Assembly (NCBI GenBank): GCA_902803365.1 | Contig: CADCPU010000095.1 | Location: 1 to 11,010 of the forward strand | Direction of reading: 5' to 3' | Origin: Oscillospiraceae bacterium | GTDB taxonomy: Bacteria > Bacillota_A > Clostridia > Saccharofermentanales > Saccharofermentanaceae | Length of the DNA: 11,010 nucleotides | Part shown: in pieces, positions 5,615 to 11,010 of the stretch | How the letters are laid out: every line of letters starts with the position of its first letter | Position numbering within the stretch: the stretch's first letter is position 1 | The notes under the pieces: model-generated | What the model was told of the DNA's origin: nothing | Database searches by the model: none | Seen by the model: the letters and a program-made list of their open reading frames with translations, nothing else | Made by a program: the position numbers and the translations under genes

Positions 5615-7030
5615 TTATACTGTCCTCGTAATGAGGATCGAATCGACCAATCCGTCTTTATCAAGCGTATATTTGAGATTGTATGTTTTCGCGAACTTCG
5701 TGAAAGACAGCGTATACTTGCCCGGATCGAGCATCGGGAATCTCTCTATAAGATCGAACTCGGAGCTTCCGATACCGATATCGCAGACACTGTAATTCTG
5801 CTTGCTGTTCGGAACGACCCTGATAGATACGAGCTCACCAACCCACTCCTTATCACCCCTGGCGATAACGTTATAGTAATTCTTGGCTGACATATTGACC
5901 GTATCCATCATCCAGTCAGGCTCGCCGCTGTAGACTGCATTAAATACCAGACACAGACCGTTATAGCTGAGGACGATCCTCTTTTTAAGGATCTCGTTGC
6001 CATCGGAATCGACAGTAGCCTGGATGTTCTCCTTAGGGATATATGTCCAGAGCGGCTTACCGAGGATCCTCGTGATCGCGGAATAGTTATACTCAAGACC
6101 GCATGTGATGCTCTGTACCTGAGAGATGTTGACCTTTGCGATCGAATCATCCGCTTCCTGAGGGATGTCGTCGTAAATGATGATATCGTTGTTGGAATTG
6201 TGTGTACCGTAGGAACTTACAGTCCTCGTATAGATCCCGTTACCGTCAGAAGAGATTACTTCAGGGATCTGGTACTCGGTGTAGAAAGCATTCGCAGCAT
6301 TGAGCCTGAACTCGTCGACATTGTTCCTGACGCGGTACTTATAGAACTCGCTGATGTACTCGGCCTTGGCCGTAATGCGCTTCTCCTCGAGCTCCGTTCC
6401 GGAGTTCTTGGAAGACTTCCTGATAAGGCTCGCGATACCGTCGGTGTTCTGCTCGTCGATCGAACCGAGATAGTGCTGCATATAGTTATAGATATCGACG
6501 ACATCGGTGATCCACTCGTCTGAGAGCTTCGCAAAACCGTCGTCATCGATGCTGTAGTAAGCGTAGACAGGGTGATCAGGCTCAACGCCGTACTCGAAAA
6601 CGACCGTCCTGATATTGCCGTACGGCTCAAGATAGTGATCGAAGCTGTCGAGCGACACCTTGGTCCTCTGTGTGAACTTATCGAAAACGCTAAGGAGATG
6701 CTCGCTGTTGTCCTCATCGTTCATGAGACGGAAGCTCTTGATCTTACCGTTGCCCGTGGACATCTCCCTGATGATGTTGATGTAAGTTACATAGTAGGAA
6801 TAGTTGATGCCCTCGCGCTGGCTCTCAGGGATCGCTTCGTACGAATCGGCGATCTGTGCCGGGTCATCAATGCCCGTTACCATGAGCCTGATGAGTTCAG
6901 GCGCGGCGATCTTGACGGAATTGGGGTCGATCTGCTTCTGGATCTTGTCAAAAAACGAACAGCCGCTGAGCATCATCATAGCAGTGATGACCATGATAGC
7001 TGTCAGTCTCAAGACCGTCTTCCTAAGCAT
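5615..7030 (-). CDS. Lipoprotein of unknown function
   Basis: A 471-residue predicted lipoprotein. Basic residues R3, K4 and R8 precede a hydrophobic segment (about 9-20) and a lipobox LSGC, with C24 as the lipidated cysteine, so the mature protein should sit on the outer face of the membrane. The rest is hydrophilic with no further membrane segment, and I recognise no catalytic motif or family. The ATG at 7030 has GGAGG 5 bases upstream. It begins 18 bases after rlmB ends and is therefore probably the last gene of the cysS operon, an unusual partner for tRNA and rRNA genes. It ends 3 bases from the convergent phosphatase stop, and no terminator is visible. It may be lineage-specific. Confidence 0.85.
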   Translation of the reverse strand: MLRKTVLRLTAIMVITAMMMLSGCSFFDKIQKQIDPNSVKIAAPELIRLMVTGIDDPAQIADSYEAIPESQREGINYSYYVTYINIIREMSTGNGKIKSFRLMNDEDNSEHLLSVFDKFTQRTKVSLDSFDHYLEPYGNIRTVVFEYGVEPDHPVYAYYSIDDDGFAKLSDEWITDVVDIYNYMQHYLGSIDEQNTDGIASLIRKSSKNSGTELEEKRITAKAEYISEFYKYRVRNNVDEFRLNAANAFYTEYQIPEVISSDGNGIYTRTVSSYGTHNSNNDIIIYDDIPQEADDSIAKVNISQVQSITCGLEYNYSAITRILGKPLWTYIPKENIQATVDSDGNEILKKRIVLSYNGLCLVFNAVYSGEPDWMMDTVNMSAKNYYNVIARGDKEWVGELVSIRVVPNSKQNYSVCDIGIGSSEFDLIERFPMLDPGKYTLSFTKFAKTYNLKYTLDKDGLVDSILITRTV

Positions 7031-7048: not shown

Positions 7049-7939
7049 TTACTGATTTCGTTGTTTTGCGGCCTCGAAAATAACGATGCCTGCGGCAACA
7101 GCCGCATTAAGGCTGTTGACGTGTCCTGCCATCGGGATCGATACCAGGATGTCGCAGCTCTTTCTGACCGTGTCTCTCATGCCCTCGCCTTCGCTGCCGA
7201 TGACGATGACCATCGCACCCTTGTAGTCAGCCTTGTCGTAGGAACAAGTGCCCTCTGCATCTGTTCCGAGGACCCAGAAGCCGTCGTCCTTAAGGTCGCG
7301 GAGCGTCTGGGTAAGATTTGTTACCTTAGCTACAGGGACGTACTCGATCGCGCCTGCGGAAGCCTTCGCGACTACCGAATCAAGACCGATCGAACGGTGC
7401 TTTGTTATTATGATGCCGTCAACGCCTGCCGCATCGGAGATACGGAGCACGGAGCCGAGGTTATAAGAATCCTTGAGCTCGTCGAGCGCAACGAGGAGAG
7501 GCTGCCTGCCCTCTGCCCTTGCCTTGGCGATGATGTCGTCGAGTTCTGCATATTCGTGGCTTGCGACATTCGCGATGACGCCCTGGTGGTTATGAGTCTG
7601 GCTCATCCTGTCCAAGGAATCGCGCTTACATCTTATGACCGTGATGTTCTGCTCCTTGGCCATCGCGAGGATCCTCTGAAGATGAGACTCCAAAGGCTTG
7701 CCGTCAGAAGGCTCCAGGATCCAGATCTTATTGAACTCTCTTCCTGCACGGAGTGCTTCCATAACGGAATTCTTACCCTCGAGACGATCGGGAGAAGGTT
7801 CGTTCCTTACGCCTTCTTCCTCTGCTCTCTCACTTGGTGCTTTTCGAGCACGCTGCTCGCGCTTGTCAAAAGAGCGCTTATCATCAAAGCTCTTGCCCTT
7901 ATACGGTCTTGCATGTCTTCCGGATCTGTCGTCTGCCAT
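7049..7939 (-). CDS. rlmB: 23S rRNA 2'-O-methyltransferase RlmB (TrmH/SpoU family)
   Basis: SPOUT-class methyltransferase of 296 residues, predicted to use S-adenosylmethionine to methylate the 2'-hydroxyl of G2251 (E. coli numbering) in the peptidyl-transferase P-loop of 23S rRNA. Residues 1-50 are highly charged, rich in Arg and Lys, and probably disordered. The substrate-binding domain follows at about 53-130 (starting LEGKNSVMEAL). The catalytic domain has motif 1 NLGSVLR (160-166), motif 2 VIGSEGEG (246-253) and motif 3 IPMAGHVNSLNAAVAAGI (268-285), which form the trefoil-knot cofactor site. The ATG at 7939 directly abuts the mrnC stop codon, suggesting translational coupling. The cysS-mrnC-rlmB order is common in Firmicutes and supports RlmB over other TrmH paralogues. 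Confidence 0.92.
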   Translation of the reverse strand: MADDRSGRHARPYKGKSFDDKRSFDKREQRARKAPSERAEEEGVRNEPSPDRLEGKNSVMEALRAGREFNKIWILEPSDGKPLESHLQRILAMAKEQNITVIRCKRDSLDRMSQTHNHQGVIANVASHEYAELDDIIAKARAEGRQPLLVALDELKDSYNLGSVLRISDAAGVDGIIITKHRSIGLDSVVAKASAGAIEYVPVAKVTNLTQTLRDLKDDGFWVLGTDAEGTCSYDKADYKGAMVIVIGSEGEGMRDTVRKSCDILVSIPMAGHVNSLNAAVAAGIVIFEAAKQRNQ

Positions 7940-8347
7940 TTAGTCCTCTTTGTTGTCCAAATATTCAAAAGTCTTGTTGATCAGATAGTCCATACGTGCT
8001 TCCTGATTATCCAGGAAGAGGTATCCGATCAGTGTCTCAAAGCCCGTCGCGTACATATAGTCTGCAGGGCTCGCGTTCTTTGCCATGCTGCCCGGGTTGG
8101 AGTTCTTGCCTCTTCTGAAGTAATTCTCCTCCGTCTCCGTCAGCTCATCCATCAGGTGGCGTATGGCCTCGGCCTGAGCCTCGGCGCATACGTACTTGAT
8201 AGTCTTCTTATGCATTACTCCGGACTTGTTCGAGAAGTGCTCTGCGACCCAGCATCTCGCGTAAAGATCGTAAACGGCGTCGCCTACGTATGCGAGTACG
8301 GAGGGCTGGACTTCACGAAGGTCGCCCGCAAAATACGGTATTATCAT
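7940..8347 (-). CDS. mrnC: Mini-ribonuclease 3 (Mini-III)
   Basis: A 135-residue RNase III-like endonuclease lacking the double-stranded RNA-binding domain, as expected for Mini-III. In Bacillus subtilis this homodimeric enzyme removes the ends of the 23S rRNA precursor, with help from ribosomal protein L3. The RNase III signature is at 19-31 (AYVGDAVYDLYAR), with D23 a likely metal ligand. RRGKN (78-82) and GFETLIGYL (102-110, E104) are the other conserved blocks. Its ATG overlaps the cysS stop in an ATGA, indicating translational coupling. Being followed by rlmB places two 23S rRNA maturation enzymes together. Confidence 0.94.
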   Translation of the reverse strand: MIIPYFAGDLREVQPSVLAYVGDAVYDLYARCWVAEHFSNKSGVMHKKTIKYVCAEAQAEAIRHLMDELTETEENYFRRGKNSNPGSMAKNASPADYMYATGFETLIGYLFLDNQEARMDYLINKTFEYLDNKED

Positions 8348-9750
8348 AACTTCTCTACCTGAGGACCGTTAGCCGTGTCCTTAACGGAATAGCCGAGGGC
8401 GTTGATCTGATCTCTCAGGGAATCTGCGAGAGCAAAATCCTTTGCCTTCTTTGCTGCCGCACGCTGCTCAACGAGAGCCGTTACCTCAGCAGGGATGCCG
8501 TTATCTTCCTCAGCAGCAGTCTCGATACCGAGAACGTCCGTAAGCTCGAGGAGCTTATCAAGAGCTGCCTGAAGTGCCTTGTCGGAAGCATTCGCTTCGC
8601 TGATGGCAGTATTTGCAGCCTTAACGAGGTTAAAGATAGCCGTGATGGCATCAGCCGTATTAAGATCGTCGTCCATGCAAGCGATAAAGTCCTCGCCTGC
8701 CTTGTTTACAGCCTCAAGGAGCTGAGCATCAGCGCTTCCGTCTCCGCTGTTCTTGCCGATGACGAACTTCAGGTTATTGATGCTCGTCGTGATCCTTGCA
8801 AGACCATTCTGTGCACTTCTCAGAAGCTCATCGGAGAAGTTGATCGGCTGTCTGTAGTGACCGGAGAGGATGAAGAAACGGATAACCGCATATGGGAAAT
8901 GAGCTGCGATATCGCGGATCGTGAAGAAGTTGCCGAGCGACTTACTCATCTTCTCACCGTCAACATTTACGAAAGCGTTATGTACCCAGTTATGTGCGAG
9001 CGTGCAGCCGTTTGCAGCTTCACTCTGCGCGATCTCATTCTCGTGGTGCGGGAACGTAAGATCCTGTCCGCCGCCGTGGATATCGATCGTATTACCGAGG
9101 TACTTCTTGATCATGGCAGAGCACTCGATGTGCCAGCCCGGACGACCTTCACCCCAAGGAGATTCCCAGAAAGGCTCGCCTTCCTTCTTGAACTTCCAGA
9201 TCGCGAAGTCACCCGGATTCTTCTTACCCTCGTAGGAAGCCTTGCGCTCACCGCCGCCTGCTACGAGATCTTCGAGCTTAAAGTGTGAGAGCTTACCGTA
9301 GCCCTCGAACTTGGTTACGTCGTAATAAACACCGTCGCCTTCGATAACATAAGCATAGCCCTTATCCATAAGTGTCTTGACGATGTCGATGATCGCATCG
9401 ATGGACTCAGTAGCACGAGGCTGATATGTAGGGCGCTTGCAGTTGAGGCCGTCAGCATCGACATAGTACTCGGCAATGAATCTGTCAGCGATCGCCTTAA
9501 CCGTCGTGCCTTCCTCATTTGCACGCTTGATCATCTTGTCGTCGATATCAGTAAAGTTCTGGCAGAACTCGACCTCGTATCCCCTGTACTCGAGATATCT
9601 TCTCAGAGTATCGAAAGTAACGAACGGTCTTGCGTTACCGAGGTGGAAGTAGTTGTAGACCGTAGGGCCGCACGCATACATCTTGATGTGGCCTTCCTCG
9701 ATAGGCTTGAGCTCTTCCTTGTATCTTGTCATCGTGTTAAAGATCTTCAT
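8344..9750 (-). CDS. cysS: Cysteinyl-tRNA synthetase
   Basis: Class I aminoacyl-tRNA synthetase of 468 residues, the family's normal length, which charges tRNA-Cys with cysteine in the cytoplasm. The HIGH-type motif is HLGN (36-39) and the KMSKS loop is at 267-271. The zinc ion that discriminates cysteine is held by C27, C210, H235 and E239, all present, the last two within FPHHENE. The C-terminal part (about 310-468) is helical and should contact the tRNA. The ATG at 9750 has GGAG 10 bases upstream. It is the first gene of the cysS-mrnC-rlmB-lipoprotein operon. The leader holds a strong hairpin (9791-9817) and a -10 element. I see no clear T-box leader. Confidence 0.97.
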
Positions 9751-9790
9751 GTTTATATTTCTCCAAATCTATTTTGTCTCTTGATATGTT

Positions 9791-9817
9791 CGGGCATTTT
9801 GTTCTCGAAAACGCCCG
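9791..9817 (-). promoter_or_regulatory. Strong hairpin in the cysS leader
   Basis: On the minus strand a 10-bp stem (9808-9817 with 9791-9800) closes a 7-base loop. One pair is G-U when read as minus-strand RNA and A-C on the plus strand, so the fold belongs to the cysS transcript. No U tract follows, so it is not a terminator. If transcription starts from the -10 at 9825-9830, the hairpin sits almost at the mRNA 5' end, where it could protect the message or bind a regulator. Confidence 0.6.
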
Positions 9818-9824
9818 TCCTAAT

Positions 9825-9830
9825 ATTATA
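9825..9830 (-). promoter_or_regulatory. -10 element for cysS
   Basis: A perfect TATAAT on the minus strand, 75 bases before the cysS ATG. No good -35 hexamer is visible at 16-18 bases, so the promoter is only probable. Confidence 0.4.
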
Positions 9831-9884
9831 GGCGCGCGTATATAATAACACATCAGCCTTAAGCTTGTTATCTGAAATTTAAAT

Positions 9885-10248
9885 ATCCGCAGTCCCGCAG
9901 GGACAGTAGTCGTTCTTAGTCGCTCTCTGCAGGTCGCTGTTATTAAGGCATGTGGAAAAAGCAAAAGATCCGAAAACGGGATACAACAACATTACCCCGC
10001 CAACGCCAAGCGCTGCGGGGCCGCTAAAAGTTACTGTGTTGTACGTACTAAAACGTTCCATAACTTCCCGTCTCTTTTGTGCATAAAAAGCCTAGAATGA
10101 ACGAACCCTTTTTGACACCTAGCTTAAGCCAGGGCGGTACCCTGCAATCAGTTTCGACCGTCCGGCGTACCCGGCTTGACCTACATTGACTGACCCGGAT
10201 TCCAATTTATGTCGTGAAGGTTCAACAAAGAGCCCATACATCCCAGGT
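9885..10248 (-). ncRNA. Candidate large structured RNA of unknown family, or very long cysS leader
   Basis: A good promoter precedes this otherwise gene-free stretch. Minus-strand helices found by eye (plus-strand positions): 10225-10232 with 10072-10080, 10217-10223 with 10103-10110, 10210-10213 with 10114-10117, 10187-10192 with 10145-10150, 10162-10165 with 10171-10174, and 10130-10134 with 10140-10144. A second domain has 10067-10071 with 9976-9980, 10037-10043 with 9982-9988, and 10015-10020 with 9995-10000 extended by 10010-10014 with 10002-10006. A last hairpin is at 9892-9904. Several helices have G-U pairs on the minus strand that would be A-C on the plus strand, so the minus strand is the RNA. 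The 5' and 3' ends do not match tmRNA, and I find no RNase P, SRP, T-box or other familiar signature. The 3' end is uncertain, as no clear terminator follows the last hairpin. Confidence 0.55.
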
Positions 10249-10254
10249 ACTTTT

Positions 10255-10283
10255 ATTATAATCTAAGTATCGCTCAATGCAAA
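10255..10283 (-). promoter_or_regulatory. Promoter of the structured RNA
   Basis: On the minus strand TTTGCA (10278-10283) and a perfect TATAAT (10255-10260) have exactly 17 bases between them. Transcription would start near 10248, at the beginning of the structured region and 60 bases after the end of the upstream gene. Confidence 0.7.
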
Positions 10284-10335
10284 CAAATATGAGCATCTTT
10301 TCCGAAAGTTCAAAGATTGTTAAGATTTCTCTTTT

Positions 10336-10351
10336 AGCCTTGATCAAGGCT
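10336..10351. repeat. 16-bp perfect palindrome over the stop codon of the CBM3 gene
   Basis: AGCCTTGATCAAGGCT is perfectly self-complementary and contains the TGA stop codon of the minus-strand gene. On the minus strand it is followed by an A-rich run, so it is a poor intrinsic terminator there; on the plus strand CTTTTCC follows. It may act as a weak terminator, an mRNA 3' end stabiliser or a protein site. Confidence 0.45.
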
Positions 10352-11010
10352 CTTTTCCGAATACTGTCTTATCACCTGACGTGATCACGATATTTTCGAC
10401 GCTCTTATATGACCTGTCATCCTTGACATCCATATTCTGCCAGTCCGTCCTGTGGATCGAAAATCCGATCGTGAGCGAAGCATATCCCTGGATGTAACCC
10501 GTGCCAAAGCTGATCTTGACGCAAGTGTCGCAATCGTCCTTCTTAACATCCTCTATCTTGGCGCTGACGTGATCGGTCATCGCGGTATAAAGTCCGTACA
10601 TCGACATCGTAGCCGCATGATAACAGTCGAATGTCAGCTCACTGCCGCCGTCGTTCGTAAGATAGTAGAGCACGTTTAATGTCGACAGATCGATATCCGT
10701 CGCGCTCTTGTTCGTGATGTCGATCGTACCCGAGATGGAGTTAGCCTGATCCGCATTGACGTCATAGTGGACCTTGACCTCAAAGTCGCCTTCCTGTGCT
10801 TCCAGGAGCTCTTCAGGATCCATCGAATAGCCGCTCGTCTCCTGTGTAAGAACGACCTCAGTCGGAGTAGCCTTAGGTGTTGTGGTCGCTTTCACATCCG
10901 CAGCAGAAGTCGGCTCCGGCTTGTCAGCCGTCTTTCCGTCAGGCATCGTACCGTAGACGATCTCGCCGTTTTCGAGAAGGACACCGCCGCTTATGCCCGA
11001 AGGATCGTTA
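10344..11010 (-). CDS. C-terminal part of a protein with a family 3 carbohydrate-binding module (partial)
   Basis: The reading frame is open to the window edge, giving 221 visible residues; the start lies outside. After about 24 residues of an upstream domain comes a Pro/Thr/Ala/Lys linker of about 35 residues, such as links domains in secreted glycoside hydrolases. The last 150 or so residues match the CBM3 pattern: KVHYDVN, then NSISGTIDITNKS, LSTLNVLYYLT, an FSIHRTDW block and a DDRSY segment near the end. CBM3 modules bind crystalline cellulose, or in some subfamilies act as helper modules of the catalytic domain. By inference this is an extracellular plant-cell-wall enzyme or adhesin; the catalytic domain cannot be named from what is visible. 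The Met at 10946 lies inside the frame and is not the start. Confidence 0.8.
   Translation of the reverse strand, partial: NDPSGISGGVLLENGEIVYGTMPDGKTADKPEPTSAADVKATTTPKATPTEVVLTQETSGYSMDPEELLEAQEGDFEVKVHYDVNADQANSISGTIDITNKSATDIDLSTLNVLYYLTNDGGSELTFDCYHAATMSMYGLYTAMTDHVSAKIEDVKKDDCDTCVKISFGTGYIQGYASLTIGFSIHRTDWQNMDVKDDRSYKSVENIVITSGDKTVFGKEP

Follow-up and report, generated by a model that had tools for sequence, protein, structure and literature searches.

The window, the whole 11,010-nt stretch of Oscillospiraceae DNA analysed here, carries on its minus strand, at 10248-10085, an RNA ahead of cysS that we conclude to be a strongly diverged 6S RNA (SsrS). The assignment was made by homology, and binding of RNA polymerase is predicted. 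Taken together, a 6S RNA at this position and a Cys-ending cysE stub as candidate leader of cysS very probably give the best explanation of the region. Members of the 6S family are well known from bacteria and bind RNA polymerase. A preliminary description of the same DNA had proposed a structured non-coding RNA, possibly of an undescribed kind, with its own promoter. The structured RNA is real and is strongly supported by covariation; its kind is already known, as it is, judged by its sequence relatives, a diverged member of the 6S family. Coordinates of the features are given in Table 1.

Table 1. Features of the window around the 6S RNA and cysS.
Feature	Position	Strand	Basis or remark
SpoU-family RNA 2'-O-methyltransferase gene	7049..7939	-	PF00588, 5.1e-42
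Ribonuclease III-domain gene, overlaps cysS	7940..8347	-	PF00636, 6.5e-24
cysS, cysteinyl-tRNA synthetase	8344..9750	-	PF01406, 6.9e-131
60-codon frame MERFSTYN...NDYCPCGTADI, cysE 5' remnant, candidate Cys leader peptide	9879..10061	-	CysE N-terminal profile, E 1.6e-4
Hairpin GUCCC-UGC-GGGAC over two terminal Cys codons (TGT 9905-9903, TGC 9899-9897)	9892..9904	-	sequence
Hairpin CCCCGC...GCGGGG inside the frame	9995..10020	-	sequence; without U run; terminator scan negative
6S RNA (SsrS), about 164 nt	10085..10248	-	R1 match, covariation, RF00013 in relatives, folding z; 5' end inferred from promoter
Terminal U run	10085..10089	-	inside 6S RNA, after closing stem
Closing stem, 3' strand	10091..10116	-	covariation helices 1-3
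Small hairpin CCUGGC/GCUAGG, central bubble 3' strand	10118..10133	-	helix 8; 3/6 pairs changed on both sides
Apical arm	10135..10204	-	helices 4-7; 13/20 pairs changed on both sides
Central bubble, 5' strand CUUCACGACAUAAAU, unpaired	10205..10219	-	many invariant columns; relatives' alignment to RF00013
Closing stem, 5' strand (partner 10116-10091)	10220..10247	-	covariation helices 1-3
6S RNA promoter TTTGCA, 17 bases, TATAAT	10255..10283	-	10/12 matches

Related loci were collected using the window cysS as a query, and the best 80 of 521 were retained. These were mostly metagenome-assembled genomes (MAGs) labelled Saccharofermentans, Clostridiales or Clostridia, many of them from rumen. A search by nhmmer with the RNA stretch gave a match in all 80 cysS-selected loci, on the plus strand of the locus, the one that carries cysS. 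In the alignment of the relatives, the promoter TATAAT and the RNA were conserved and were followed by cysE, a cysE stub or cysS itself. A redundancy filter left out seven short cores and passed 35 rows, 32 of which made up alignment A1 (L020, L056 and L068 were left out and L080 was trimmed shorter). Raw mutual information was set aside for A1, where the relatedness of the rows drowned the signal. An 18-base pattern match in a viral contig (L081), with no further blastn similarity to the window, was taken as chance.

The rod common to the relatives and supported by covariation consists of a closing stem, a central bubble, an apical arm and a small hairpin in the 3' strand of the bubble. Across the 32 sequences its 46 pairs were formed in 90.0% of 1466 cells. 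Double-sided changes were counted in 139 cells, where shuffles gave 50.7 ± 6.2 and slid controls 23-48, and the covariation score was 0.398, against 0.255 in shuffles and at most 0.126 in slid versions, the slid control being biased in favour of the rod since this was drawn on the tested alignment itself. Three of five covariation measures were separated from the shuffles (0 of 500 as high); the other two, which count doubly changed pairs and further pair types, did not separate, their values being reached in 79 and 237 of 500 shuffles, respectively. The alignment of RF00013, the Rfam 6S model, to family members agreed with the rod test. Covariation in homologues, to which the preliminary description had looked for support of an RNA, was thus found.

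Folded alone, 10248-10085 was better than shuffles (z -2.48, 4 of 200 as good). Taken as one RNA, the 366-base stretch on the minus strand showed no advantage over shuffles, 26 of 100 of which folded as well (z -0.69), and its plus strand gave z +0.23. The RNA strand had been predicted correctly as minus, but the proposed length of about 360 bases has to be reduced to about 164 nt. One of two helices put forward earlier (10187-10192/10145-10150) survives in that 5 of its 6 pairs belong to a covarying apical helix (helix 5); the other (10010-10014/10002-10006) can be drawn but sits in a reading frame outside the RNA. Conserved structure ends at the closing stem (10091), after which the U run follows. 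At least five T were present among the ten bases after the closing stem in 83 of 99 loci, so many transcripts may end there; a terminator scan of 9700-10340 detected none.

At its cut-offs, Rfam matched tRNA-Arg alone in the whole window. In a permissive scan of 9780-10345 (E ≤ 10), no match was obtained for RF00013, nor for a T-box or other known riboswitch; a cyano_tmRNA match (E 2.3) was taken as chance, and ARAGORN found no tmRNA. 6S RNA had been set aside in the preliminary description, yet RF00013 matched relatives at the same place. Among 21 related genomes, 15 were matched at E ≤ 1, always at the place found by R1 (a model resting on the 32 rows, at least three of which, L080, L034 and L010, come from genomes with RF00013 matches); seven matches were over the cut-off, and the remaining six genomes had none. 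Similarly, cmscan on four related loci gave RF00013 in all four, three over the cut-off. A cysteine-riboswitch reading, suggested by the linkage to cysE and cysS, was dropped once RF00013 had matched relatives at the same place. Searching 12 close genomes with RF00013 at E ≤ 10 gave nothing at the right place and one chance stretch elsewhere. As RF00013 scores neither the window copy nor these 12 genomes, the identity is drawn through a chain of homology. A check against known Rfam families therefore leaves the window copy unmatched while relatives match over the cut-off, and because of these significant matches in relatives, rather than in the window copy, the novelty of the RNA falls.

At class level, RF00013 matched 208 of 245 genomes, 195 over the cut-off. 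Of these class-level RF00013 loci, the 30 with the best scores, hence not a random sample, were fetched; R1 detected every one at E ≤ 1, and 28 of them also passed E ≤ 0.01. A second model, R2, combined the window with 11 loci of clades where RF00013 fails, leaving out L080, L034 and L010; it detected 20 of the 30 class loci and all seven order-level loci at E ≤ 0.05 and missed 10 of the 30 (E-values of both models are rough). Nine of its 11 genomes and three other close loci had been searched with RF00013 at E ≤ 10, L066 and L074 lying outside that search. On the window, R1 matched 10254-10077 with 164 bits. It found a single copy in nine of nine genomes; in the order to which L080 belongs, 175 of 188 genomes had a match and 13 had none. 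Two 6S-model matches were seen in five of these 188 order genomes (G013, G086, G103, G111 and G112). No other 6S was found in the related genomes searched with RF00013.

The promoter of the preliminary description is present, at 10283-10255 on the minus strand. A TATAAT with at most one mismatch stood shortly before the RNA in each of the 92 loci, the window among them, whose upstream sequence was long enough; TTGACA with at most two mismatches was found in only 44 of the 92. A second promoter-like site (9871-9842) was within the chance count (two found in all, 1.1 expected) and was rejected.

Linkage was counted over 99 loci, 80 picked by cysS, 18 picked by the RNA and one being the window, with L128 outside the counts. 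In all 99, cysS lay downstream of 6S on the same strand. It was also found in all 65 RNA-picked loci; some places were fetched twice, and 18 are among the 99. Neither cysE nor cysS was found at any of the 30 class-level 6S loci, within about 3 kb or less around each. Following 6S, a full cysE stood in 33 of the 99 loci, a spacer without full cysE in 44 and cysS directly in 22. Where a full cysE followed or cysS came directly, the first start codon lay at most 100 nt from the closing stem in 52 of 55 loci; the exceptions were L080 and L137, where cysE begins after 167-176 nt, and L067, where cysS begins after 103 nt. Probably, therefore, transcripts of cysS or of cysE-cysS have 6S RNA as their 5' leader: with about 100 nt or less between closing stem and start codon, there is little room for another promoter, which makes co-transcription likely. 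On a CysS tree, built by a quick method and carrying several long branches, the three states could be explained with no fewer than 20 changes; for full cysE, 12 or more are imposed by well-supported branches. Therefore, cysE was lost or gained many times. The unusual part of the arrangement is the fixed position of 6S ahead of cysE/cysS with a cysE-derived, Cys-ending stub; searches of openly licensed PMC papers, judged by titles and the starts of abstracts, brought up no report of 6S before cysS.

In the window, ribonuclease III-domain and SpoU-family genes stand downstream of cysS, the former presumably Mini-III-like by its size and place. Further along, a protein of 471 residues is encoded at 5615-7030 (minus); by eye it begins like a lipoprotein (LSGC), and it matched nothing in Pfam at E ≤ 0.01. 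On the other side of the RNA, a gene for a CBM3 (cellulose-binding) protein occupies 10344-10946 (minus), and a similar gene was seen by eye upstream of the RNA in L001.

What had been described as a second RNA domain (about 10080-9885) is the 60-codon cysE stub, and the statement that no credible protein gene is present is wrong for 10061-9879. The E-value of this frame against a profile of 33 CysE N-termini is for 1000 sequences. Plain tblastn with one CysE (E ≤ 1e-3) did not show the stub, the frame had no Pfam match, and a protein search with its 60 residues gave one record alone, 98% identical. In the spacer loci, frames were searched only 15-60 nt behind the closing stem; one of at least 25 codons was present in 42 of 44, L020 and L134 having no frame of 25 codons. 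The CysE profile matched 26 of the 42 at E ≤ 0.01 and 36 at E ≤ 1, against 0 and two, respectively, of 840 shuffled frames; the frames of L062, L076 and L078, counted within the 42, are doubtful as cysE derivatives. Between 6S and cysS, these three loci show no clear cysE stub; inspection by eye gave a local hairpin that varies and, after it, a terminator-like one (GATCCCG...CGGGGTTATTT or a near variant).

Cys was present among the last 20 residues of all 42 short frames, window included, with at least two Cys in 33. Its share was 12.9% in the last 20 residues, compared with 1.0% in the rest of the frames and 1.2% in CysS; the 42 frames are related rows and not 42 independent events. Three kinds of tail occurred in different parts of the tree, ..CPCG.. 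(as in the window), ..RCCAVCTCVSG.. and ..RSCRC.

In one clade, most of whose frames end in RC (the RC-ending clade), the minimum-energy fold paired the stretch of Cys codons with at least three of the four bases of the cysS ribosome-binding site (RBS) core AGGA in 18 of 20 loci. All four bases were paired in 17 of the 20; L058 had two paired and L059 none. The 5' arm of this hairpin is nearly invariant, so no support from covariation is possible (alignment A2, 17 of 19 loci, L058 and L059 left out). Masking of the Cys codons raised the mean openness of the 12-base RBS stretch from 0.42 to 0.51 in 37 loci of all kinds (L033, L062, L071, L076 and L078, five of the 42 frames, were left out); openness rose by more than 0.1 in 12 of the 37 and fell in four. 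The gain is small because other pairings take the place of the hairpin. In the window, a hairpin between RBS and Cys codons was not seen and openness was unchanged upon masking (0.70 to 0.70). From these predicted folds, translational attenuation may fairly be inferred in the RC-ending clade; for the window it would be only an analogy. By eye, GUCCC..GGGAC was also present in L002, L003 and L077, and several relatives had a terminator-like hairpin in the 5' codons of cysE, the counterpart of window 10020-9995.

The rod of 6S RNA imitates an open promoter with its central bubble and binds the housekeeping RNA polymerase, which it leaves after templating a short product RNA. In the proposed mechanism, the RNA would be made from its own promoter, and the window transcript 10248-10085 would, from what is known of the family, act as 6S on the housekeeping RNA polymerase. 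The cysE stub would serve as a leader peptide, at whose terminal Cys codons the ribosome would stall under a shortage of charged tRNA-Cys; the hairpin masking the cysS ribosome-binding site would then open and cysS expression would go up.

A cis-acting, riboswitch-like leader of cysE/cysS that resembles 6S in shape alone would agree with the constant position before cysS or cysE-cysS (99/99), with the lack of either gene at the 30 class-level 6S loci and with the failure of Rfam to score the window copy. We consider it highly improbable, as members of the family score above the curated RF00013 cut-off at the very positions of this RNA, models of the window-type RNA detect 6S loci without cysS found nearby, and the RNA is mostly single copy, with no other 6S in the genomes searched. 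The proposal of a single 360-nt orphan RNA of the raiA, OLE, ROOL or GOLLD kind can hardly be correct: no Rfam match to those families was obtained, the 366-base stretch lacks a folding signal, and cysE codons are recognised in its second half, which is missing from the loci with 6S directly ahead of cysS (22/99), even though both halves keep their position in part of the relatives and the second-half hairpin recurs.

For the frame at 10061-9879, a mere decaying cysE pseudogene, whose Cys codons are chance or leftovers, has to be weighed against a leader peptide. The frame does derive from the start of cysE, the window lacks the RBS hairpin, L033 looks frameshifted and two spacer loci (L020, L134) are without a 25-codon frame. 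Constraint is weak, with pN/pS 0.61 in 12 frames picked for their equal length of 38 codons, a length which is hence no evidence; in these, the Cys codon before CGA alternates between TGT and TGC. Moreover, six of 28 full-length CysE examined end in RC or have DDRCC near the end (L011, L013, L016, L021, L022 and L023, just before cysS), so the Cys codons may already have been present before the body of cysE was lost. Against decay, Cys is kept near the end in 42/42 frames, at 12.9% versus 1.0% and in three tail kinds across the tree, the other two reading frames carry stops in 11 and 12 of the 12 equal-length frames, and Cys codons pair with the cysS RBS in 18 of 20 loci of one clade. On balance, the pseudogene reading seems rather unlikely, and a Cys-ending leader of cysS behind a 6S RNA is preferred.

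A protein gene downstream of 6S RNA, as found here, is also present in E. coli (ssrS-ygfA), the gene being another one. Its expression is reportedly tied to 6S termination, as Chae et al. are said to have described in 2011, and we know of no leader frame between E. coli ssrS and ygfA. The RNA shares with B. subtilis 6S-1 and RF00013 the rod, the small hairpin in the 3' strand of the bubble, a size of about 165-180 nt, its own promoter and a mostly single copy; it differs in that the window and 12 of 12 close genomes are unscored by RF00013 and in that it immediately precedes cysE/cysS. In the part of the source available to us, B. subtilis 6S-1 is described with a closing stem, a central bubble with a small 3'-strand hairpin and an apical arm (PMC8876501). 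As far as the consulted part of another report goes, 6S in lactic acid bacteria is a neighbour of rarA/uspA and, for most species, is regarded as monocistronic (PMC8414754).

Cys-codon frames before cysS and cys operons are already published. According to the accessible portion of the report on uORFC-8-2 of Rhodobacterales, a short Cys-codon frame stands ahead of cysS, as it does here, and ribosome-mediated attenuation was proposed (PMC8632094). That system, from alphaproteobacteria, has tandem Cys codons and a transcription attenuator with terminator, and 6S is not mentioned in the same portion (PMC8632094), whereas the present frame derives from cysE, has a Cys-codon end and would act on the RBS in one clade. 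In Mycobacterium and P. acnes, upstream short frames of cys operons, and in B. longum that of cbs, carry runs of Cys codons near the stop, in the excerpt consulted (PMC1262725). These actinobacterial leaders, short frames with Cys codons near the stop codon like those described here, precede biosynthesis genes, and the excerpt mentions neither a cysE origin nor 6S (PMC1262725).

A would-be orphan RNA is thereby removed and replaced by a 6S RNA that Rfam's model leaves unscored in this clade, and covariation-supported 6S members are now given for a clade common among rumen MAGs. It is quite possible, although put forward tentatively, that 6S has here been hard-wired as the 5' leader of cysteine/tRNA-Cys genes and that the first ~40 codons of cysE have been kept as a Cys-ending leader peptide after repeated loss of cysE, so that a growth-state regulator and a cysteine-sensed synthetase would arise from one unit. 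If true, an enzyme gene would have turned into a leader peptide, and polymerase control and cysteine supply would be joined in a single transcript.
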